DNA of 12,521 nt from Desulfobacterales bacterium (GTDB lineage: Bacteria > Desulfobacterota > Desulfobacteria > Desulfobacterales > C00003106): contig JAUWMN010000017.1 in NCBI GenBank assembly GCA_030613165.1, positions 1 to 12,521 of the forward strand. The letters run 5' to 3'. Position numbers and translations under genes: made by a program. Positions 395-12,292 of this stretch are shown here, piece after piece. The stretch's first letter is position 1, and the number at the start of each line of letters is the position of its first letter. The notes under the pieces were generated by a model. The model was not told the DNA's origin and did not search any database. It worked only from the letters and a program-made list of their open reading frames with translations.

Positions 395-2572
395 TTATCG
401 ATTAAGGTTCCAGTCGTAGTAAATGTATTCAAACTTAAGCGATTCAGCTTTGTTCCGGATGAATTGCCGGGCTTCTGTGTCATGCAGATAGTCATAAAGG
501 AAATCCACAACGCCGCGTCGCCCGCCAAAGTCGGGTTCATACCAGCGGAAGATCTCAGATAAGAGTATCTTGTTCTCTTCAGGGAGGACGATCACTTCTG
601 AAGAATTTACGAAGCTTCCGGCAGCATCCTCAAGCTGGTCATAAATCGTAGCCGCGTCATAACAGTCGATAGGAGCACAGGACCGAGAGCCGCACACCAG
701 GGTGAAGTGAATACGGGGATCCACAGGCTTGAGCATAAAGGACTTGCGAGGGTTTCCGGGACCAAACTGTCGTAGCGGACTAAACCAGGGGCGAGTGTTA
801 GCGCGCAGGATCCCGTGTTCGATGTCGGCGGCGGAGAAGAGGTAACCCCCGATATCGTACTTCACGCGCCTAAAGAAGCGAGGGATTTCCTGAACCGATT
901 GAGTAATGCCGAGAGACGCAATACCGTCGACCACAATACTGTTATAAAGGTTCACCCAAAAGGCCAGCTTTTGCCGACGTCCTACGAGACGGGACAGACG
1001 GAATCCCCGTAAACCATTGGTAAGAATTCGGTAGTCCTGGTACTCGGCAGACTCCCGGAGCGCCTGGTAGTCTACCCGGCCCCTCGTGGTATCGTAAAAG
1101 GAATTCCGCAATGCCCGAATGGCCCGCATGAGAGCGCCCGCAAGGTTGTCGAGTGCGATATCAGGCATTATGTTTCCCTTGTTTAATACTATATCAGAGG
1201 TGAAGAAACCGCGCACCTTGGCGGTTACCCGCCTCGATATTGTCTCGCTTTCGTAAAATTCATGCACCAGGTCGATAAACAGGGCTGCCGTCCAGCTGAA
1301 ATTGTCGCTTCCGTACCCCGTGCCATCGAAGGAATCAAAGTACTCGTGAAAGCCGAAGCGTATAGGGAGCTGTAAGAGATCCTTTTGCAGAGAGTCGGCC
1401 TTCAGGGTATAGCCGTAGCGGCGGAGACCCTGGGCGAGCATCCAGTTGATATTGATCCATACGGGTCCGCGCCAGTAATTGGCGCGGTCAAAATCCCGGC
1501 TCTGGGTGTCGTAGTTAGGAACAGTGAAACAGTTACCCTGGTTAAGGGCACAAAACGAGGCAGAATCAAGATGCTGGTAGAGGCTTTCGGCCTGCTCTCG
1601 GCTTGCCGCTCCGGCAAAGAGCGGCAGAAAACCCGCGGCGGTATCTACCTCGATGGGGTCATCGGCCACCAGGTCGTATGCATCAAATATTTTATGTTCG
1701 GGGTGCCACAGCTTTCGCCGCATGGATGCCGCTGTTTTTTCGGCCCAGGAGAGCGGCAGATCCGGAGACGCGCCGATTACACGTGCTATCTCTGCCAGTG
1801 ACTGGTTAGCTCTGCATAGCACCGAGTTAAAGAGCGGGTCCTGGACGAGGAATGGGCACGATTCGCGAATACTGTATTCGTCATAGTTACGCCGGCGAAA
1901 CAGATCCACCAGGTAAATGTATCGGTCGTAGTTCTCGTCGGTGGGGCGCATACTCGGGTCTACTCCGTGCTCAAGGTCTTTGCGTTGATATGGGGGCATT
2001 GTGGCCCGGTCAATCGCTATCCGCTGGAGGGGAAGATCCCACGTTGGCGAGTTGTCGATACCCGACTCCCAGGGATGACGTATATAGACAAGCCCTTCGT
2101 TGTTGGGGTCTCGCTCCCGATATAGGTACTCGTGTAGAGCTATCAGCTTGGGATAGATACGCTCCAGAAAAGGGAGTATGTTACGGGGGCGCCTGGAGTT
2201 GCGGTAGATTTTCTCCACCGCTATAGCGTGAATTGGGGGCATGGTAACGCCTGATGTCAGCGTGCCGTCCGGGGCGTTGGGGGACCGTTCGGTCTGCCAG
2301 AAGTCAGGCTCCGGGAAGTAGTGCCCAAGTGCGTTGGGATTGAAGACAATTTGCGGCAGCATGCCGTTTCGCCACTGGGCGCCGAAGAGAGTTTCGATCT
2401 CCATGGTTGTTCGCTCAATGTCATAGTGAGAGCGACCTATAGCAATGAATCCCGAATCCCAATTCCACTGGTGTGGGTAAAGTGAAGGAGCAGGTTTGGT
2501 AGATGATCCCATCCAGTTCTGATCTAAAATGCGCTTGGCCTTTTCCACGTAGGTAGCAAAAATGCGAGGCAC
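395..2572 (-). CDS. GH63-type glycosidase (glucosylglycerate hydrolase-like) fused to DUF547
   Basis: A 725-residue two-domain protein. Residues about 1-440 look like the bacterial GH63 (alpha/alpha)6-barrel group that includes mannosyl-/glucosylglycerate hydrolases: HQWNWDSGF at 34-42, HPWESGIDNSPTWD at 166-179, YWRGPVWININW near 366-377, and HEYFDSFDGTG at 409-419. Candidate catalytic acid and base are D173 and E410; their spacing of 237 equals that of the pair I recall for mycobacterial GgH (D182/E419). Residues about 490-690 carry DUF547 signatures: AFWVNLYNSIVV, IEHGILR, DPRIHFTLVCGSRSCAP (C627, C632). No signal peptide is visible, so a cytoplasmic location is inferred. The start is GTG, chosen because AGGAGG (2577-2582) lies 4 bases upstream; an ATG overlapping it is in another frame. 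It is last in the minus-strand cluster, 66 bases after the radical SAM gene. Exact substrate and DUF547 role are unknown. Confidence 0.85.
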   Translation of the reverse strand: MPRIFATYVEKAKRILDQNWMGSSTKPAPSLYPHQWNWDSGFIAIGRSHYDIERTTMEIETLFGAQWRNGMLPQIVFNPNALGHYFPEPDFWQTERSPNAPDGTLTSGVTMPPIHAIAVEKIYRNSRRPRNILPFLERIYPKLIALHEYLYRERDPNNEGLVYIRHPWESGIDNSPTWDLPLQRIAIDRATMPPYQRKDLEHGVDPSMRPTDENYDRYIYLVDLFRRRNYDEYSIRESCPFLVQDPLFNSVLCRANQSLAEIARVIGASPDLPLSWAEKTAASMRRKLWHPEHKIFDAYDLVADDPIEVDTAAGFLPLFAGAASREQAESLYQHLDSASFCALNQGNCFTVPNYDTQSRDFDRANYWRGPVWININWMLAQGLRRYGYTLKADSLQKDLLQLPIRFGFHEYFDSFDGTGYGSDNFSWTAALFIDLVHEFYESETISRRVTAKVRGFFTSDIVLNKGNIMPDIALDNLAGALMRAIRALRNSFYDTTRGRVDYQALRESAEYQDYRILTNGLRGFRLSRLVGRRQKLAFWVNLYNSIVVDGIASLGITQSVQEIPRFFRRVKYDIGGYLFSAADIEHGILRANTRPWFSPLRQFGPGNPRKSFMLKPVDPRIHFTLVCGSRSCAPIDCYDAATIYDQLEDAAGSFVNSSEVIVLPEENKILLSEIFRWYEPDFGGRRGVVDFLYDYLHDTEARQFIRNKAESLKFEYIYYDWNLNR

Positions 2573-2638: not shown

Positions 2639-4228
2639 TCAGGCCATCTCCATAAAGCACTGCGGATCTCGTTCTTCAAACATGTCCAAGCCGTGGCCAT
2701 GGGCAATCGAAAGGCAGCCGCCACATACCGGACGGATGGCACAGGAACGACATGTATTACACCCCTGGCGGTAGCGACGAGCTATATCGGACTCATAGAT
2801 ATCAGCGATGCTTTGATCCAGTACGTTTCCAATAAGAGAGGGAAACTTCCTGCAGGCGTGGGCTTCTCCGTCCGGTAGGACTGCCATAAAGTTGAACGCC
2901 GCGCCACATCCATAGCCGGTACACCCGCCAAAGGGTTCCCTTCCCTTTTGGTGAAGCACTATATTGATGAGGTTGTCCTTGAAACCAATGATAGGATTGT
3001 TCTCCGATGCCGCTACGTACGCCTCCAGAAAGGCGGCATACTTTTCGCGTGTGGGGAGTTGAAGGTTTGCCCCCTCTCCGACCGGAGAGAGACGGTTGAA
3101 GGTAAAGTCATCGGCTAACCCGCGAAGCCTCTCGGCAAGAGGGAGTACCTGATCAATGTTGTCTCTCGTGAGGGTGAGCATCACTGTAGAGTAGATGTCA
3201 AGTTCCCGGAGCACCGCAAGAAATTCGATCACTCGCGCGAAATGCCCTGGGCCGCGTATGATATCGTTGTGTTCCGGCAAGCCTTCCAGGCTCACCTGAA
3301 AAAACGTAAGTTTCTGGATCGCAAGCAGCTCTTCCATACGTTCCCTGGGTGTGGGATTTCCGAGAATCGAGATGGAGAAACCACGTTCTGACGCAGCGCG
3401 ATACAGTTCAGAAAAATGTGGATAGAGAAGCGGATTGCCACCGGTAAAGGAGACATGTTTTCGAACATATTGACTCAGGCAAAAAGCACGTAGGTCGTCA
3501 AGAATACCGACAGCCTGGTCCAGGCTAAGGCTGGATCGCCTGCTCCTGTCATAACAGTGTTTACAGTGAAGATCGCAGGCCTGGGTCACATGCCACTGAA
3601 GAGTAAATGCGGATGCGGACAAGAAGTGCTCAGGCGTGTTCTGTCCCAGAGGGAAACTATCAGAATCGCGCCGTATGCGTGATGGGGGTGCGATCAGGAT
3701 GCCCCTATGGACTGCACGATCAATCGCGGCATCGACGGAGCCGATCGGGACTTCACCTGCCGCTGCCGCTGCCACCGGGTCAACCTCCTCGATTACCATC
3801 TTGAGTACAAGGAGATCCTCCTCTGTGGCAGCTTTGGTCTCTGTCTTTCCGGATCCAGGGTCCCGCCAGACGAGCAATAATTCCTCGCCGGGGATAGGCA
3901 TAGCAGGGGAAGCGTCGCTCTTAGCAGTCAGAAGGGAGGAAAGTTTCCAGGAAAGCGTGAGCAGTACAAGTGTGGGATTAACCTGAAGCTGCTCGAGTTC
4001 TCGGGGAATTGCAATCTCGCCGGCTGCTGCTTTGTAGCGAGCCCACTCCACACGTGCAAGGTCGGGCAGAAAAGCGGGCAAACCAATCGCGCCCGACTGA
4101 CCCGCAAGTCTATCGGCCACCCTGTCAAGCTCCGCGGATTCGTCACACCCCGCAATGAGCTGACTCCAGGCTTTAGGCTCTAAAATAGAGCGGCATTTGG
4201 GGTAAATCTCTTCGAGTTTCAGATGCAC
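2639..4228 (-). CDS. sbtM: Radical SAM/SPASM peptide maturase, SbtM-like
   Basis: A 529-residue radical SAM enzyme. Residues 213-226 contain CDLHCKHC, the C-x3-C-x2-C [4Fe-4S] site (C218, C222, C225), followed by FTGGNP (261-266), a GGE-like SAM-binding motif with Asn in place of Glu. The C-terminal region (436-524) is SPASM-like, with C436, C441, C459, C490, C493, C496, C502, C505 and C524, enough for auxiliary Fe-S clusters. The ~200-residue N-terminal extension has LPDLARVEWA (54-63), NPTLVLL (84-90) and LLLVWRDP (117-124), which to my eye recall DUF2063/HvfC; this could be the peptide-recognition part. The product is expected to modify Cys in the adjacent peptide; NCBI names the family I recall thio(seleno)oxazole maturase SbtM. 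The start is GTG, 13 bases after the peptide's stop, with an in-frame TAG two codons upstream and only a weak AGGG nearby, so translational coupling is likely. Radical SAM/SPASM is certain; the SbtM name comes from memory plus context. Confidence 0.88.
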   Translation of the reverse strand: MHLKLEEIYPKCRSILEPKAWSQLIAGCDESAELDRVADRLAGQSGAIGLPAFLPDLARVEWARYKAAAGEIAIPRELEQLQVNPTLVLLTLSWKLSSLLTAKSDASPAMPIPGEELLLVWRDPGSGKTETKAATEEDLLVLKMVIEEVDPVAAAAAGEVPIGSVDAAIDRAVHRGILIAPPSRIRRDSDSFPLGQNTPEHFLSASAFTLQWHVTQACDLHCKHCYDRSRRSSLSLDQAVGILDDLRAFCLSQYVRKHVSFTGGNPLLYPHFSELYRAASERGFSISILGNPTPRERMEELLAIQKLTFFQVSLEGLPEHNDIIRGPGHFARVIEFLAVLRELDIYSTVMLTLTRDNIDQVLPLAERLRGLADDFTFNRLSPVGEGANLQLPTREKYAAFLEAYVAASENNPIIGFKDNLINIVLHQKGREPFGGCTGYGCGAAFNFMAVLPDGEAHACRKFPSLIGNVLDQSIADIYESDIARRYRQGCNTCRSCAIRPVCGGCLSIAHGHGLDMFEERDPQCFMEMA

Positions 4229-4241
4229 ACCCTAATACCGG

Positions 4242-4460
4242 TCAGCTGCAAGAACTCTTCCCGCAGGAAGACCCTCCACAGGAACTCTTGCCCTTCTTGT
4301 CGTCGTCGGTTTGGGTCTTGCCACTGCACGATGACCCGCTGCAACTCGTCTGCGTCTTCTCGTCCGGGGTAGAGCATCCGGTGATCGGAAGTGAAGCGCC
4401 GGCAATCAGCCCGGCAATACTAAACCCTGCCAAGATCTTCTTAAGTTTCTTTAAGTCCAT
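4242..4460 (-). CDS. sbtA: Cys-repeat RiPP precursor, SbtA-like, with lipoprotein-like leader
   Basis: A 72-residue peptide, the probable substrate of the radical SAM enzyme 13 bases downstream. The N-terminus has a basic patch (KKLKK, 4-8), a hydrophobic stretch (9-26) and a lipobox-like ITGC (26-29), so secretion, possibly as a lipoprotein anchored at C29, is predicted. The rest is low-complexity: TSCSG-SSCSG-K (38-48), an acidic/basic spacer (TQTDDDKKGK, 49-58), then SSCGG-SSCGK-SSCS (59-72). Cys 40/45 and 61/66/71 are five residues apart. Serine, glycine and cysteine codons vary between repeats, so the pattern is kept at protein level. The ATG at 4460 is chosen over a TTG 18 bases upstream because AAGGAGG sits 5 bases before it. 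The family I recall includes members with selenocysteine at these sites; here all are Cys codons (TGC/TGT), and the gene ends at TGA. Precursor identity is supported by composition and neighbour; the modification is inferred. Confidence 0.82.
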   Translation of the reverse strand: MDLKKLKKILAGFSIAGLIAGASLPITGCSTPDEKTQTSCSGSSCSGKTQTDDDKKGKSSCGGSSCGKSSCS

Positions 4461-5279: not shown

Positions 5280-5310
5280 ATATGCAATCATTTTCCACTC
5301 ATATGCAATC
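5280..5310. repeat. Tandem 10-base direct repeat with 21-base period
   Basis: ATATGCAATC occurs at 5280-5289 and again at 5301-5310. The 21-base period is two helical turns, so both copies face the same side of the DNA, as for a tandem regulator site. The repeats overlap the start of the 35-codon small ORF, where they encode Met-Gln-Ser twice. The repeat is exact; any binding role is inference. Confidence 0.4.
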
Positions 5311-5389
5311 TATTTCTCTTTTAATGGGAAAACTTTTGCAAGAAATTGCAAAAACGTCTTCTTGTGCTCAATCGCCGACTTCGCCATAG
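5282..5389 (+). CDS. Possible small ORF, 35 residues, unknown function
   Basis: ATG at 5282 is preceded by GGAAGGAG (5266-5273) at 8 bases, the strongest ribosome binding site in the intergenic region. The frame runs 35 codons to TAG. The peptide begins MQSFSTHMQSISLLMGKLLQ; it has a moderately hydrophobic middle, one Cys and a Ser/Pro/Thr-rich end. I recognise no family. The DNA includes a 10-base direct repeat at the start and a perfect hairpin in the middle, so the segment may be regulatory instead, for instance a leader peptide or small RNA. After the stop, other frames stay open briefly, so a decayed longer gene is also possible. No promoter was identified. Confidence 0.3.
   Translation: MQSFSTHMQSISLLMGKLLQEIAKTSSCAQSPTSP
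5334..5353. other. Perfect 8-bp hairpin with GAAA loop
   Basis: TTTTGCAA-GAAA-TTGCAAAA forms a perfect 8-bp stem closed by a GNRA-type tetraloop. It shares TTTTGCAA with the ends of the two inverted-repeat elements and may be a remnant of joined element ends. It is not followed by a T run, so I do not call it a terminator. Confidence 0.4.
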
Positions 5390-5838: not shown

Positions 5839-7224
5839 ATGCCGGAAAAAAGCAAATCACTTGGAATGTTTATTTTCACAGCGTTTTGTCTACTTACTAT
5901 ATGGACAGTAGGCTGTGCCACGTCAAAGGAACGACATGCGTTTGAACAATTTCATCAAGTAGAGCATAGCTCATACGTTAATGCTGACGAGTCACTGCCT
6001 CCATCTCTTCTGCCCAAGCTTGACGAAAACTCCACACTATCCGACTACATCGCATATGCAGCGCTTAATAACCCCGGACTAAAAGCAGCCTTTAATCGGT
6101 GGAAGGCATCACTCGAAAGAATACCACAAAATCGGTCCCTTCCAGACCCGCGTTTCAACTACACATACTTTGTCAAAGAGGTAGAGACACGGGTCGGACC
6201 ACAGCGACAAAAATTTGGACTTGTACAAACATTCCCCTGGTTGGGCAAGCTAAAAGCCAGAGGAGACGTTGCTACAGAGGCTGCAAAAGCCATTCAACAG
6301 CAATACGAGGCAGCAAAACTCAAACTCTTCTTTCAGGTAAAAAAATACTACTATGAATATTACTACCTGGCCCGAGCAATCGCCATTACTCAAGAAAATG
6401 TGAACCTGGTAAAATATTTAGAGGCGGTTGCACGGACAAAATATAGAGCCGCGGCAGAGAGCTATGCCAACGTAATCAAAGCACAGGTGGAACTCGGCAA
6501 ATTAATCGATAGATTGCAAACTCTCCAAGAGCTGCGGGGACCTATTGCGGCAGAACTTAATGCAGCGCTCAACCGCCCTTCTGATGCTCCCCTCCCCTGG
6601 CCCACGTCAATACCCGAATTAGAGATGACATATTCGAAGAAGGACCTTGTTCGCCGGCTTTCAGAAAACAACCCTGACCTTAAGGCCATGGACTGTCAAA
6701 TTGCCAAAGCAAAGTCAGGAATAGATCTGGCCGGTAAAAACTACTTTCCCGATATTACCATAGGGGCGGAATTTATTGATACGGACGATGCCCTGAATAC
6801 GGCTACGCCGGACAGCGGCAAAGACCCGGTCATGGCCATGGTTTCCATCAACATACCCATTTGGTATGGTAAGTATAAAGCTGCCGAAAGCGAGGCTCGC
6901 GCACGGTGGAGAGCGGCAAAAGGAACCCGAATCAATGTTGCGAACAGCTTGATCGCCGAACTCAAAATGACCTTTTATGAGTTTGCCGACGCCAAGCGAA
7001 AGATCAACCTTTACAGGGATACCCTTATACCCAAGGGGACTGAATCCCTTGAAGTCACACAAAAAGCTTTCGAAGGCGGCAAAGTCGACTTTATCAATTT
7101 GATCGATGCCCAACGCATTCTATTGGAGTTTCGTCTCTCTTATGAAAGGTCCCTTGTTGATTATGCCCAAAGCCTGGCGAAGCTCGAAATGTTGGCAGGT
7201 AAAGAATTGCTCCCAGACCCATAA
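5839..7224 (+). CDS. cusC: Outer-membrane efflux channel, CusC/CzcC (TolC) family
   Basis: A 461-residue TolC-family protein, the usual length. The N-terminus has basic residues, a hydrophobic stretch (8-25) and TVGC (23-26), so a lipoprotein anchored at C26 is likely, as in E. coli CusC. The body holds two outer-membrane-efflux repeats, roughly 45-245 and 250-455, with typical long Ala/Lys/Glu-rich coiled-coil helices, the QTFPWLGKLKARGDVA segment near 130-145, and the late FEGGKVDFINLIDAQR motif near 410-425. It would form the trimeric outer-membrane duct of the metal pump. The start ATG has AAGGAA about 8 bases upstream. It opens an operon: the adaptor gene begins 22 bases after its stop. 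Confidence 0.92.
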   Translation: MPEKSKSLGMFIFTAFCLLTIWTVGCATSKERHAFEQFHQVEHSSYVNADESLPPSLLPKLDENSTLSDYIAYAALNNPGLKAAFNRWKASLERIPQNRSLPDPRFNYTYFVKEVETRVGPQRQKFGLVQTFPWLGKLKARGDVATEAAKAIQQQYEAAKLKLFFQVKKYYYEYYYLARAIAITQENVNLVKYLEAVARTKYRAAAESYANVIKAQVELGKLIDRLQTLQELRGPIAAELNAALNRPSDAPLPWPTSIPELEMTYSKKDLVRRLSENNPDLKAMDCQIAKAKSGIDLAGKNYFPDITIGAEFIDTDDALNTATPDSGKDPVMAMVSINIPIWYGKYKAAESEARARWRAAKGTRINVANSLIAELKMTFYEFADAKRKINLYRDTLIPKGTESLEVTQKAFEGGKVDFINLIDAQRILLEFRLSYERSLVDYAQSLAKLEMLAGKELLPDP

Positions 7225-7246
7225 CGTAGGCATAGGAGTATAGGCC

Positions 7247-8623
7247 ATGAAGGTCTTCATACAAAACTTGTGGAAACACTATTCAAAGATTATCGTTCCG
7301 GGCCTGCTTCTCATAGCATTCTTGCTCGGTTATCTTTTCAGGGGCGCGCCTCCTACACATCCTGTGCATGAAGCTCCCCCGTCAGGCGCTCATGTCGGCC
7401 ATGACGTTGGCATGATGCCCGCGCGTCACCTCGTGCTTTCCGAGACAGCCCGGAAACTTGCCGCTATACAGGTAGCGCCTGTGGAAAAAAAGTTTGTAAC
7501 ATCTCAAATCCGAATGTTTGGCAAGGTCGACTATGACGAAACACGATTGGCATATATTGCTGCCAGGGTACCGGGACGTTTAGACCGGCTTTATGTCGAT
7601 TATACAGGTATTACCGTAAAGAAAGGGGATCACCTGGTCTATCTTTACAGCCCGGAGCTCTTAACTGCCCAGGAAGAATTGATTCAGGCATTGAGGGGAG
7701 TGGAAAATATAAGAAAGAGCGCTATCAAATCTATACGAGAAGCATCCCTGGCCACACTTGAAGCCGCGCGTGAAAAATTAAGACTCTGGGGATTGACTCC
7801 GTCACAGATAAAAAAGATCGAGAGACAAAAAAAACCGTCCGACCATATCACCATTTATGCCCCCATAAGCGGGACCGTTATTCACAAGAATGCCGTAGAA
7901 GGAATGTATGTCGATACCGGCACCCGCATTTATACGATCGCCGATCTCGCTTGGGTGTGGGTCAAATTAGACGCATATGAGGCAGATATTATGTGGGTCC
8001 GCTATGGACAGGAAGTTGAACTTATGACAGAGGCCTATCCGGGAGAAAAATTTAAAGGGCGGATCTCATTTATTGATCCGATACTGAATGCCAAAACCAG
8101 AACCGTCGCTGTAAGGGTCAATGTGGACAACAGGGACGGAAAGTTGAAACCGGGGATGTTTGTCAGGGCGGTGGTACACTCGAAAGTAGCCAAGGGAGGC
8201 AAGGTGATGGATCCCGGGCTGGCAGGCAAGTGGATAAGTCCGATGCACCCGGAGGTCATCAAGAACAAGCCGGGCAAATGCGACATCTGTGGTATGCCGC
8301 TGGTGCGGGCGGAGGATCTTGGATACGTCAAGGCGGAACCAAAAGAAGCGCCATTAGTGGTCCCTGCCACTGCTCCTTTGATTACCGGCAAGCGTGCGGT
8401 GGTCTATGTCCAGATGCCTGACAATAAGACCATGTTCGAAGGGAGGGAGATCGTTTTAGGTCCTCGGGCCGGCGATTATTACCTTATCCGAGCAGGGCTC
8501 AAGGAAGGAGAGCTGGTTGTGGTCAATGGAAACTTCAAGATTGACAGCGCTATGCAAATTCAGGCCAAACCGAGCATGATGAATCCCGAGGGCGGGGCTG
8601 CGGCTCCGGTTCACAGACATTAA
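7247..8623 (+). CDS. cusB: Periplasmic adaptor (membrane fusion protein), CusB family, with heavy-metal-binding module
   Basis: A 458-residue adaptor linking the RND permease to the outer-membrane channel. An N-terminal anchor or signal helix (about 14-31) is followed by a His/Met-rich segment (36-61: H38, H41, H49, H52, M56, M57, H61), a plausible metal-capture site like the N-terminal Met cluster of CusB. Then come the barrel-sandwich half (PGRLDRLYVDYTGITVKKGD), a helical hairpin (about 138-198), the second lipoyl half (ITIYAPISGTVIHKNAVEG) and the beta-barrel (about 230-315). Residues 329-353 are a heavy-metal-binding domain: WISPMHPEV then GKCDICGMPL (C345, C348). The C-terminal membrane-proximal region follows and ends in HRH. 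The module is usually N-terminal in this family, so its late position is notable. AGGAGT lies 7-8 bases before the ATG; 24 bases separate this gene from the permease gene. Confidence 0.92.
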   Translation: MKVFIQNLWKHYSKIIVPGLLLIAFLLGYLFRGAPPTHPVHEAPPSGAHVGHDVGMMPARHLVLSETARKLAAIQVAPVEKKFVTSQIRMFGKVDYDETRLAYIAARVPGRLDRLYVDYTGITVKKGDHLVYLYSPELLTAQEELIQALRGVENIRKSAIKSIREASLATLEAAREKLRLWGLTPSQIKKIERQKKPSDHITIYAPISGTVIHKNAVEGMYVDTGTRIYTIADLAWVWVKLDAYEADIMWVRYGQEVELMTEAYPGEKFKGRISFIDPILNAKTRTVAVRVNVDNRDGKLKPGMFVRAVVHSKVAKGGKVMDPGLAGKWISPMHPEVIKNKPGKCDICGMPLVRAEDLGYVKAEPKEAPLVVPATAPLITGKRAVVYVQMPDNKTMFEGREIVLGPRAGDYYLIRAGLKEGELVVVNGNFKIDSAMQIQAKPSMMNPEGGAAAPVHRH

Positions 8624-8647
8624 GGCACAAATTAGGAGCAGCTACCA

Positions 8648-11600
8648 TTGATCGATAAAGTCATCTGGTTTTGCCTAAAAAATAAGCTGGTCGTGCTATT
8701 GTTCATGATCCTCATCATCGGCTGGGGGATTATGGTCGCGCCGTTCGACTGGGAACTGGGGGACCTCCCCCGTAATCCCGTGCCGGTCGATGCCATACCG
8801 GATATAGGGGAAAATCAGCAGATTGTCTTTACAAAGTGGATGGGTCGATCCCCCCAAGATATTGAAGACCAAATATCGTACCCGCTTACTGTATCTCTGT
8901 TGGGTATCCCGGGAGTCAAAACCATTCGTGTTTACTCCATGTTCGGTTTTTCCACAATCTACGTTATCTTTAAAGAAGAGGTGGACTTCTACTGGTCAAG
9001 GACAAGGATACTCGAAAAATTGAACAGTCTTCCCGCCGGCACCCTCCCCTCAGGTGTTCAACCGGCATTAGGACCGGACGCAACAGCTCTTGGACAAATA
9101 TTTTGGTATACCCTGGAGGGTCAGGACGAACACGGCAAACCCACGGGCGGATGGGACCTCCATGAGCTCCGGTCAATACAGGATTGGTACATACGCTATG
9201 CCCTGCTAAGCGCTGATGGTGTGGCGGAAGTAGCCTCTGTAGGCGGCTTTGTCCGGGAATACCAGATTGATGTCGATCCCGATGCCATGCGTGCTTTTGG
9301 CGTTAAACTTGATGAAGTCTTCATGGCCGTCAAGATGTCGAACGTAGATGTTGGGGCGCGCACCATTGCTGTCAATAAGGTTGAATACGTAATACGCGGG
9401 GTCGGTTTTCTCAAAAGCCTGGAAGATATCGAAAACACTGTAATCAAGGTCAATGATAATATACCGGTCTATGTAAAGAACGTAGCACATGTAGCCATGG
9501 GGCCTGCTCTCCGTCGCGGCGCACTCGATAAAGAGGGCGCGGAAGTGGTTGGGGGGAGTGTAGTGGTTCGTTACGGTGAAAATCCCCTTGCCGCCATAAA
9601 AAACGTTAAAAAAAAGATCGCTGAAATATCGCCCGGCCTCCCCCAAAAAACATTGCCTGATGGCACGATAAGCCAGGTCAAAATCGTCCCTTTTTATGAC
9701 CGGGCAGGTCTGATTTACGAAACTCTGGGGACACTCAACTCCGCGCTAACCGAAGAAATCCTCATTACCATTATCGTGGTTATTATTGCCACGTTCCATC
9801 TGCGGAGTTCTCTCCTTATATCCGGTCTCCTCCCTCTGGCTATACTCATGTCCTTCGTCGCCATGAAGATCTTTGGCGTGGACGCTAATATTGTAGCGCT
9901 TTCAGGCATCGCGATTGCCATTGGCACCATGGTGGATATGGGCATCATTGTCTGCGAAAATATCCTGAAACATCTTGCAGAAGCAAGGCCCGATGAAGAC
10001 CGCGAAGGGGTCGTCTTTCGGGCTGTCAGGGAAGTGGGGGGAGCAGTGCTGACCGCGGTTTCCACAACCGTGGTAAGCTTTCTCCCCGTATTTGCCTTAG
10101 AGGCTGCGGAAGGCAAGCTTTTCAAACCACTGGCTTTCACGAAGACCTTCGCCCTGATCGCGTCCGTAATCGTGGCACTGGCTATTATTCCTCCGTTTGC
10201 TCATATCCTTTTTACCGGCAGAATCAAACAAAAGAATCTGCTGTGGGAAAAACTCCCGAAAACAGCGAAACGTATTTCCCACAGGCTGGCTGTAGGGCTG
10301 ACTGTCCTGATCGTTGCGACGCTCCTCACCCGGTACTGGCTCCCGCTCGGACCGGAAAAAGGGGTCCTGCGCAACCTGGTCTTTGTGGCAGTTTTAATCG
10401 GCGGCCTCCTCGGCTTCTTTTATATCTTTCAACGTTTTTACGAGTCCCTCCTGCGATGGTGTCTTGCCCACAAAATGACCTTTCTCTCCCTTCCCGTGGC
10501 TCTGATTCTCTTTGGAGGGTTTGTCTGGCTCGGTTTTGATTCATGGTTCGGCTGGCTCCCTGAACCGGTACGGAATACGCGTGTCATAGCATTCCTTAAT
10601 GATAAATTACCCGGTCTGGGTAAAGAATTTATGCCTCCTTTAGATGAAGGATCATTTTTATTTATGCCTACCATCATGCCCCATGCCTCAATCGGAGAAG
10701 CGCTCGATGTACTCCGGAAACAGGACATGGCGATCCGTTCCATTCCCGAAGTCGATTCCGTGGTGGGGAAGCTCGGCCGGGCAGATACGCCTCTTGATCC
10801 CGCGCCGATTTCTATGTTCGAAACGGTTATTAACTATAAACCTGAATACACCACCGATAAAGATGGGCGCCGCGTACGTTTTCGCTTTGATAAAACCTCT
10901 GGCACGTTCGCCAGGGACGCCCACGGCAATCTCATCCCGGATTCCAGTGGCAGACCATACAGATTGTGGCGACCACAGATCAAAAGCCCTGACGATATCT
11001 GGAAAGAGATTGTTCGCGCTACGGATCTTCCCGGCGCCGTATCTCCCCCTAAACTCCAGCCTATAGCTGCCCGAATCGTTATGCTACAAACCGGCATGCG
11101 CGCCCCTATGGGCATTAAGATCAAAGGACCGGACTTGGAGACTATCGAGAAGGTAGGATTGCAGCTTGAGCGATTTCTTAAAGAGGTTCCATCAGTGGAG
11201 CCTACCGCGGTTCTGGCCGACCGAATCATGGGTAAACCATACCTGGAAATAGATATTGACCGTATGGCCACAGCCCGTTACGGAATAAAGCTACGCCAAA
11301 TCCAGGATGTTATTGAAGTGGCCATTGGAGGGAAACGAATCACTACTACGGTGGAAGGTCGAGAGCGGTATCCTGTGCGCGTTCGCTATATGCGCGAGCT
11401 GAGGGACCGGATCGAGTCCCTGGAGAGAATACTTGTTCCTGCGCCTGACGGCGTTCAAATACCGATCGCGCAGTTGACGACCATTCGCTATGTGCGTGGC
11501 CCTCAAGTTATTAAAAGCGAGGATACTTTCTTGGTCGGTTATGTCATTTTCGACAAAAAACCCGGGTATGCCGAGGTGAATGTTGTAGAAGATTGCCAGA

Positions 11601-12292
11601 CCTACCTGCGGGAAAAGACTAAAAGCGGGGAGTTCTCGCTTCCTGCGGGTGTTACCTATACGTTTGCCGGCAGCTATGAAAACCAGGTACGTTCCGAAAA
11701 AAAGCTGAAGATTATACTACCTTTGGCCTTTTTTATTATATTTATGATTCTCTATTTTCATTTCAGATCTGTTTCCACCACGGCAATGGTCTTCTCGGGG
11801 ATCGCGGTGGCATGGGCCGGGGGGTTTCTCATGATCTGGCTTTATGGACAACCATGGTTTCTCAATCTTAGTGTCCTGGGGACCGATATGCGCGGACTCT
11901 TCCAGGTGCACCCCATAAATCTGAGTGTTGCTATTTGGGTCGGTTTTCTTGCCCTGTTCGGCATTGCCTCCGACAATGGCGTAGTGATCGCCACCTACTT
12001 AGACCAGAGATTCGCCTCTGGGAATATTACTTCCATAGAAGCAATACGGAACGCAACAGTTGAAGGCGCGGTTCGCAGGATCAGACCGTGCCTGATGACC
12101 TCTGCAACCACTATACTCGCTCTAATCCCCATTCTTACCTCCACGGGTCGCGGCGCTGATATTATGGTGCCGATGGCCATCCCCTCGTTTGGCGGAATGG
12201 CCGTGGTCTTTATTTCGGTCTTTGTCGTGCCCGTGCTCTATTGTATGGTCAAAGAACTCTCATTCAAACACACCGCAAACGAAAATCTATAG
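8648..12292 (+). CDS. cusA: Heavy-metal RND efflux permease, CusA type (Cu+/Ag+)
   Basis: A 1214-residue heavy-metal-efflux RND protein, longer than E. coli CusA (about 1047). It starts with a membrane helix (about 12-31), then porter-domain sequence typical of CusA (DAIPDIGENQQIV, GRSPQDIEDQISYPLT). The proton-relay helix carries GTMVDMGIIVCEN with D430 and E437. The three Met of the CusA metal site (M573, M623, M672 in E. coli) align with M673 (FMPTIMP), M723 (ISMFET) and M812 (MLQTGMRAPMG), arguing for Cu(I)/Ag(I) over divalent metals. Extra length lies in three places: two additional hydrophobic segments (about 545-566 and 573-597), a charged porter-domain insertion (about 731-780) and an insertion near 1057-1099. 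The start is TTG with AGGAGC 8 bases upstream; no ATG fits better. It ends the operon and converges with the next gene 30 bases on. Confidence 0.94.
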   Translation: MIDKVIWFCLKNKLVVLLFMILIIGWGIMVAPFDWELGDLPRNPVPVDAIPDIGENQQIVFTKWMGRSPQDIEDQISYPLTVSLLGIPGVKTIRVYSMFGFSTIYVIFKEEVDFYWSRTRILEKLNSLPAGTLPSGVQPALGPDATALGQIFWYTLEGQDEHGKPTGGWDLHELRSIQDWYIRYALLSADGVAEVASVGGFVREYQIDVDPDAMRAFGVKLDEVFMAVKMSNVDVGARTIAVNKVEYVIRGVGFLKSLEDIENTVIKVNDNIPVYVKNVAHVAMGPALRRGALDKEGAEVVGGSVVVRYGENPLAAIKNVKKKIAEISPGLPQKTLPDGTISQVKIVPFYDRAGLIYETLGTLNSALTEEILITIIVVIIATFHLRSSLLISGLLPLAILMSFVAMKIFGVDANIVALSGIAIAIGTMVDMGIIVCENILKHLAEARPDEDREGVVFRAVREVGGAVLTAVSTTVVSFLPVFALEAAEGKLFKPLAFTKTFALIASVIVALAIIPPFAHILFTGRIKQKNLLWEKLPKTAKRISHRLAVGLTVLIVATLLTRYWLPLGPEKGVLRNLVFVAVLIGGLLGFFYIFQRFYESLLRWCLAHKMTFLSLPVALILFGGFVWLGFDSWFGWLPEPVRNTRVIAFLNDKLPGLGKEFMPPLDEGSFLFMPTIMPHASIGEALDVLRKQDMAIRSIPEVDSVVGKLGRADTPLDPAPISMFETVINYKPEYTTDKDGRRVRFRFDKTSGTFARDAHGNLIPDSSGRPYRLWRPQIKSPDDIWKEIVRATDLPGAVSPPKLQPIAARIVMLQTGMRAPMGIKIKGPDLETIEKVGLQLERFLKEVPSVEPTAVLADRIMGKPYLEIDIDRMATARYGIKLRQIQDVIEVAIGGKRITTTVEGRERYPVRVRYMRELRDRIESLERILVPAPDGVQIPIAQLTTIRYVRGPQVIKSEDTFLVGYVIFDKKPGYAEVNVVEDCQTYLREKTKSGEFSLPAGVTYTFAGSYENQVRSEKKLKIILPLAFFIIFMILYFHFRSVSTTAMVFSGIAVAWAGGFLMIWLYGQPWFLNLSVLGTDMRGLFQVHPINLSVAIWVGFLALFGIASDNGVVIATYLDQRFASGNITSIEAIRNATVEGAVRRIRPCLMTSATTILALIPILTSTGRGADIMVPMAIPSFGGMAVVFISVFVVPVLYCMVKELSFKHTANENL

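Follow-up and report, generated by a model that had tools for sequence, protein, structure and literature searches.

We identified a two-gene peptide system, sbtA and sbtM, in bases 1-12521 of contig JAUWMN010000017.1 from an uncultured Desulfobacterales bacterium (GCA_030613165.1); this whole stretch of 12,521 nucleotides is called the window below, and its assembly (genome G000) measures 1.77 Mb and is 67% complete. Our preferred reading, to which we give a probability of roughly 0.6, is that the pair makes a selenium-free, ribosomally synthesized and post-translationally modified peptide (RiPP) of the thiooxazole type. The radical S-adenosylmethionine (SAM) enzyme SbtM would install up to five thiooxazoles in the precursor SbtA, which would then be exported, anchored to lipid and perhaps bind soft metals. 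This is the best explanation for what we observed of family membership, homology of the SbtM N-terminal module, lipobox conservation and the absence of selenocysteine features, and under it the core would be modified, the leader bound and the peptide exported and lipidated. The module is related to proteins that accompany multinuclear iron enzymes (MNIOs). The features of the pair are:

4242..4460, minus strand: sbtA, precursor of 72 aa, above the TIGR04081 cut-off, with a TGA stop.
4374..4460, minus strand: SbtA leader, a lipoprotein-type signal up to and including Cys29, proposed from leader conservation as recognition and export signal.
4242..4373, minus strand: SbtA core with five thiooxazole sites, predicted from its sequence and from relatives that hold cysteine or selenocysteine at the corresponding motifs.
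2639..4228, minus strand: sbtM, radical SAM/SPASM maturase of 529 aa (TIGR04082, PF04055, PF13186).
3659..4228, minus strand: SbtM N-terminal module, residues 1-190, homologous to MNIO partner proteins.
3128..3607, minus strand: radical SAM domain, residues 208-367, with C218-x3-C222-x2-C225 (PF04055 at residues 214-367).
2657..2923, minus strand: SPASM-type C-terminal region, residues 436-524 (PF13186 at residues 441-496).

A previous reading of the DNA letters, made without database searches (the sequence-only reading), had proposed an SbtA/SbtM-type system from a 72-residue peptide with a signal-like leader and five cysteine repeats, 13 bases from the enzyme, and had named an NCBIfam search as the check. 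The open reading frame (ORF) is as it described: an ATG at 4460, with AAGGAGG upstream ending 5 bases before it, opens a frame that stops at 4242 and translates to MDLKKLKKILAGFSIAGLIAGASLPITGCSTPDEKTQTSCSGSSCSGKTQTDDDKKGKSSCGGSSCGKSSCS. Thirteen bases (4229-4241) do separate this gene from sbtM, which lies downstream on the same strand and whose GTG start at 4228 is tentative, with no clear ribosome site there. The NCBIfam search, run here, supports the family call, with SbtA reaching 43.9 bits over residues 1-24 against the leader model TIGR04081 (cut-off 30.5) and SbtM 744 bits against TIGR04082 (cut-off 350; profile positions 1-516 of 516). Among radical SAM families the runner-up for SbtM is the ACGX system, with 157 bits against a 400-bit cut-off.

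The pair also recurs in relatives. A scan of named genomes gave 159 pattern matches, 90 of which encode a relative, and the best 80 of these 90 (loci L004-L083; by their titles mainly Desulfo-, 'Deltaproteobacteria' and Nitrospirota, with a few Omnitrophota and others) make up, with the window, the 81 loci discussed below. Cultured carriers of the genes in that scan include Malonomonas rubra DSM 5091 and Desulfospira joergensenii DSM 10085. A hidden Markov model (HMM) of the leader, seeded with eight SbtA peptides including the window's, detects SbtA in 58 of the 81 SbtM loci, window included, and at 48 loci, again counting the window, SbtA lies within 1.1 kb upstream of SbtM on the same strand. 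In 23 loci no leader was detected; in three of them (L009, L078 and L079) SbtM lies less than 200 bases from a contig end, and the other 20 are not so explained. Because both proteins pass curated cut-offs and the pair recurs, we do not regard it as a chance arrangement. No second SbtA was found in the window's incomplete genome. Among 297 genomes sampled from the window's phylum, 29 encode an SbtM above the cut-off (G000 counted).

The C-x3-C-x2-C site that had been noted from the letters is C218-x3-C222-x2-C225, and these three cysteines are invariant in 58 of 58 aligned SbtMs, as are C436, C441, C459, C493, C496, C502, C505 and C524, eight C-terminal residues presumed to be auxiliary Fe-S ligands. 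The fold of the full-length enzyme (AlphaFold2 model, pLDDT 90.2) best matches sactipeptide and ranthipeptide SPASM maturases (SuiB, SkfB, PapB and others), which like SbtM combine radical SAM and SPASM parts. Several of these maturases carry an N-terminal RiPP recognition element (RRE). Since these closest solved folds include thioether-forming enzymes, the modification might be a thioether or another change to cysteine, as in other SPASM maturases, which we consider very unlikely given an equivalog match to TIGR04082 at twice the cut-off. The in vitro assay of SbtM reportedly comes from Lewis et al. 2021 (Biochemistry 60:3347). Passages of PMC11002830 describe an SbtM (WP_083768621) that took four hydrogens off both cysteine and selenocysteine substrates in vitro, the cysteine product being a thiooxazole by nuclear magnetic resonance, and this report also argues against a thioether. 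'Modified SbtMa' is listed among 5-thiooxazole compounds, with absorbance near 305 nm, in passages of PMC12668002. The family's product chemistry is thus already published as thiooxazole, and the earlier statement that it was open, with no characterised product, is out of date at that level; for the window pair the same product is suggested by analogy.

The window SbtA carries five core cysteine motifs (TSCSG, SSCSG, SSCGG, SSCGK and SSCS; pattern [ST]S-C-[SG]). At every [Ser/Thr]-Ser-Cys site the radical SAM half of SbtM would strip away four hydrogens, giving up to five 5-thiooxazoles, with a predicted mass change of -4.03 Da per ring and -20.2 Da in total. The pair resembles the known SbtA/SbtM system in that both proteins exceed curated cut-offs, the genes are adjacent and the core has the S-C-[SG] motif, and it differs in that the precursor has no selenocysteine. 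Neither a lipoprotein signal nor a module like an MNIO partner is described for that system in the passages of PMC11002830 and PMC12668002.

The N-terminal extension that the sequence-only reading saw on the enzyme is present, and its nature is more specific than was stated. It comprises a helical DUF2063-like half (about residues 1-80) and an RRE-like half (about 81-186) of three strands followed by three helices, the arrangement of an MNIO partner protein. In hhalign comparisons the module aligns with the partner from locus L091 over 181 columns (E 4.4e-14), and four of four MNIO partners score above all 180 controls, the one from L092 over 96 columns only. For the helical half alone (SbtM 1-80), each of the four partners gives a score in the range 30-41, and none of 100 controls exceeds 20.8. 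In the model, the fold of the module matches 3dee and the partner chain of TglHI, and a motif [DE]LAx[LV]E is common to SbtM and all four partners. Alternatively, this region may be an ordinary RRE such as that of SuiB and kindred sactipeptide maturases, its likeness to MNIO partners being generic. We find this improbable, as the alignments with 3dee and TglHI chain A span 165-178 residues, helical half included, and stand well above the matches cited for an ordinary RRE, and as both the scores of the helical half and the shared motif extend to every partner.

Several results count against the kinship with MNIO partners. The RRE half alone beats controls for two of the four; the Pfam model PF09836 finds no match in SbtM at E <= 1, and the protein is not classed as PF09836; in a search of PDB sequences, an HMM built on the module recovers neither 3dee nor TglHI nor any other partner protein; and some SbtMs (G123, G279) apparently begin at about profile position 102, which would leave them without the helical half. 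Together with L072 and L081, these two form a set of relatives that match from about 102-120 onward and may lack that half. When plasmids were searched for relatives of the L091 partner, two weak hits came up. From sequence comparison, SbtM would be a natural fusion of a DUF2063-RRE module, a separate partner protein in MNIO systems, to a radical SAM/SPASM module. We found no link between SbtM and DUF2063 in the literature searched, which included passages of PMC12452194, PMC12710340, PMC12538549 and PMC12668002. In the cytoplasm, the module would bind the conserved signal/leader of SbtA.

The leader itself proved to be signal-like, as had been claimed, and more particularly lipoprotein-like: residues 1-28 form the signal/leader and residues 26-29 an ITGC lipobox (I26-T27-G28-C29). 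We compared 62 precursors, namely 64 hits of the leader HMM minus L001 (a repeat of the window) and L078 (E 0.5), with L081 (E 0.03) retained; the set includes L014 and L015, near-copies from one assembly. Among the 55 leaders that start with M, L10 and L18 are invariant, K7, K8, G12 and A16 each occur in 50-52, and position 29 is cysteine in 27. A lipobox cysteine is present in 28 of the 62 precursors, 27 of these having it at exactly residue 29, after six of the 34 hits of a regular expression were removed by eye (L017, L046, L056, L057, L059 and L076). Lipidation by Lgt would require this residue to remain cysteine. Eighteen of the 28 have a core with selenocysteine only and no cysteine while the lipobox cysteine stays cysteine, so that it is kept, as Lgt would require, where the modifiable positions have become selenocysteine.

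Judging from these signals, the window SbtA is probably exported and lipid-anchored via Cys29. The Sec export machinery, Lgt and signal peptidase II (LspA) would carry out these steps, and a dedicated transporter or protease would be unneeded because the leader is itself a lipoprotein signal. Weighing against a general role for the anchor, 34 of the 62 precursors have no lipobox, which means that lipidation is not essential to the family; many of the 34 seem by eye to end in signal-peptidase-I sites. Four loci (L013, L023, L024 and L034) have tandem SbtA paralogues upstream of one SbtM, one with a lipobox and the other without. In the SbtA of the Olavius algarvensis Delta 4 symbiont (L049:9458-9544, plus strand), residue 29 is encoded by TGA, giving LSA-selenocysteine and not LSA-cysteine, and the core is all selenocysteine.

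The window precursor is, as far as its codons and genome tell, a selenocysteine-free form amid selenocysteine lineages. In its relatives, core TGA codons are followed by stabler hairpins than cysteine codons are (mean z -1.26 for 138 TGA codons, some of which may be stops, against -0.09 for 62 cysteine codons; Mann-Whitney p 4.5e-10, codons within one gene not being independent). A hairpin with a GGT loop follows 67 of the 138 TGA codons and 7 of the 62 cysteine codons, an incomplete pattern since it is absent at 71 TGA codons, and GGTGCAGGTRGCACC, which forms such a hairpin resembling a selenocysteine insertion sequence (SECIS), encodes the GAG[GS]T block that recurs in the peptides. None of the window SbtA cysteine codons is followed by a GGT-loop hairpin. 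A selenocysteine-bearing SbtA would be expected to combine in-frame TGA and a downstream SECIS-like hairpin with selenocysteine machinery, a combination that the window SbtA does not show; in its genome (67% complete) SelA was not found and no SelB exceeded the cut-off. We also considered the terminal TGA of the window sbtA as a selenocysteine codon and ruled this out, there being no GGT-loop hairpin and no SelA found.

Across genomes, SelA is missing from 7 of 8 with cysteine-only precursors and from 2 of 42 with selenocysteine precursors (Fisher p 2.8e-6, 50 of 56 genomes tested; p 6.1e-7 after adding the incomplete window genome), the classes being assigned by eye with trailing or off-motif TGA read as stops (L017, L043, L083 and the window). 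On a tree of 53 SbtMs the cysteine-only state takes three changes, all three forced by starred branches, and the window SbtM falls among selenocysteine lineages, its exact placement not being starred. Replacement of selenocysteine by cysteine therefore probably happened more than once, the window included. SbtM chemistry is reported to accept both residues in passages of PMC11002830. The prevalence of selenium bears on function as well, as most precursors seen use selenocysteine and SelA is present in 26 of the 29 SbtM-bearing genomes of the phylum, and the product may accordingly be a redox or selenium/sulfur-handling envelope lipoprotein and not a metal ligand. We see this as possible but doubtful: formation of a (seleno)thiooxazole would abolish the ordinary thiol redox couple, and cysteine-only forms persist without SelA.

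Returning to the thiooxazole reading, the closest parallels are bufferins and captophorins, whose reported product is also a thiooxazole (passages of PMC12452194 and PMC12668002) and which, like SbtA, have an exported, cysteine-rich precursor and a homologous recognition module. About 16% of Buf2 bufferins are lipoprotein-like (passages of PMC12452194), a mix of signals similar to that among SbtAs. They differ in using a multinuclear iron enzyme with a separate partner protein, whereas SbtM is a radical SAM enzyme with the module fused. The MNIO model PF05114 has no match in the window genome (67% complete) or in 28 other SbtM-bearing genomes. We considered whether SbtM and MNIOs exclude each other and set the idea aside: an MNIO occurs in 0 of 29 SbtM genomes, but this count proves nothing, since few genomes of the phylum have DUF2063 at all (3 of 59). 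DAG-RiPPs (DybA, NedA) are lipoprotein RiPPs shown for MNIO systems, and hybrids beyond MNIOs may exist (passages of the preprint PMC12636315). The window SbtA, by pattern and by eye, shares with them a precursor with a signal peptidase II signal and a lipobox cysteine at the signal's end; they are MNIO products, and SbtA would by analogy be a radical SAM case.

Among the four partners tested, the closest kin of the SbtM module is at L094 (MNIO at 3629, reversed strand). Shortly before the MNIO gene there, a small frame encodes a signal-peptide-like stretch followed by the repeat GQCGSGNCGSGNCGSD, a likely precursor whose repeat is much like the GSCGKGSCGK cores of some cysteine-only SbtAs. 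By such comparisons, SbtM and MNIO systems appear alike in precursor style, export route, recognition module and reported product, and differ in catalyst. Within the literature searched, no report joins lipobox, radical SAM and precursor peptide, and no paper treats SbtM with SbtA together. SbtM as a fused MNIO-partner module and the window SbtA as a probable radical-SAM-made lipoprotein RiPP are likewise unreported in the passages available from that literature.

Once at the envelope, the anchored array of thiooxazoles and thiolates would bind soft metals such as Cu(I). This is the weakest and least certain step of the proposal. Other thiooxazole peptides bind copper according to passages of PMC12452194, PMC12636315 and PMC12668002, which is a stronger argument for a metal role than gene neighbourhoods. 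The genes on either side of the pair are:

5839..12292, plus strand: Cus/Czc-type heavy-metal RND efflux operon with outer-membrane channel, CusB-like adaptor bearing a heavy-metal-binding domain, and CusA/CzcA pump (Pfam, NCBIfam).
395..2572, minus strand: MGH1-like glycoside hydrolase (residues 32-428) fused to DUF547 (residues 532-655) (PF22422, PF04784).

The efflux operon matches TIGR00914 at 778 bits (cut-off 701) and TIGR01730 at 139.7 bits (cut-off 94.9), together with PF19335 (HMBD) and PF02321. Elsewhere, a CusA-type pump encoded on the SbtA strand stops 111 bases short of SbtA (L046), SO_0444 Cu/Zn efflux genes lie about 100-150 bases after SbtM (L033 and L038), and ArsP-like permeases occur within 2 kb (L065, L071 and L082). 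A functional link between the Cus operon and sbtA/sbtM is only suggested by these arrangements, and several observations speak against it. The window operon begins 1.4 kb away on the opposite strand, in divergent orientation; metal-efflux genes were noticed, without a systematic scan, at 7 of the 81 loci; and five of these seven (L033, L038, L065, L071 and L082) have no recognised SbtA. In a Pfam scan of 268 of the 275 ORFs nearest to SbtM (two per side, within 3 kb, at the other 80 loci; sets of 135 and 133), no metal or peptide-export family is prominent among the 25 commonest families of each set, and the tally is two for ArsP_1, two for ACR_tran and three for ArsR-type HTH_5. Seven loci, some of them too closely related to one another, do not suffice to prove a link.

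The same scan bears on whether SbtA might be released to the medium as a selenobacteriocin-like toxin or signalling peptide, a view in keeping with the name 'Selenobacteriocin' given to TIGR04081 in a 2026 review (passages of PMC13188914). Those commonest families include no exporter, protease or immunity family that turns up repeatedly beside SbtM, and the lipobox of 28 of the 62 precursors, the window's included, would tether the product, making release an unlikely fate. Conserved neighbours were rejected as a guide to function, since clustering of the 1192 ORFs of the 81 loci left, beyond SbtM (79 loci) and one cluster of 39 loci, none in more than 13 loci. The single scanned member of the 39-locus cluster is a sensor histidine kinase, and the cluster present in 13 loci represents an endonuclease/exonuclease/phosphatase family, judged from one member scanned by itself and five in the neighbour scan. 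A gene of that family directly follows SbtM at nine loci (L021, L025, L026, L029, L030, L031, L036, L042 and L044), and the six of these that are on the SbtM tree form one clade. Where SbtA was found, in six of the nine (not L026, L029 or L036), it sits 3' of this gene and not before SbtM.

The glycoside hydrolase-DUF547 gene of the window is co-directional with sbtM and lies 66 bases downstream; its association with the pair is uncertain. DUF547 stands beside SbtM at 3 of the 81 loci, the window, L004 (convergent) and L043 (overlapping, same strand). No Rfam model matches at gathering score in the window. In the 1.4 kb that separate sbtA from the efflux operon there is a 35-residue frame, MQSFSTHMQSISLLMGKLLQEIAKTSSCAQSPTSP, at 5282-5389 on the plus strand, preceded by GGAAGGAG.

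For SbtA, these results offer a concrete envelope hypothesis, where the literature passages name no role beyond 'selenobacteriocin'. They make testable how a maturase holds a precursor whose leader doubles as a Sec signal, a question raised in passages of PMC12452194. They do the same for what a DUF2063-associated RRE recognises: passages of PMC12710340 report no specific recognised motif, and the strongly conserved SbtA leaders are a clear candidate. More broadly, we think it rather likely that thiooxazole RiPPs share a chassis, an exported and often lipid-anchored precursor with cysteine or selenocysteine repeats plus a DUF2063-RRE module, that has been coupled to two engines, MNIOs and, by fusion, radical SAM enzymes in lineages that to judge by their names are mostly anaerobic. 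On this view the bufferin machinery would have its radical SAM counterpart in SbtM, and a lipobox-bearing SbtA like the window's would be the first example of a lipoprotein RiPP from a radical SAM enzyme. That two enzyme classes with differing chemistry reach the same heterocycle, with a shared module and style of exported precursor, suggests that the chassis, and not the catalyst, may define thiooxazole peptides.
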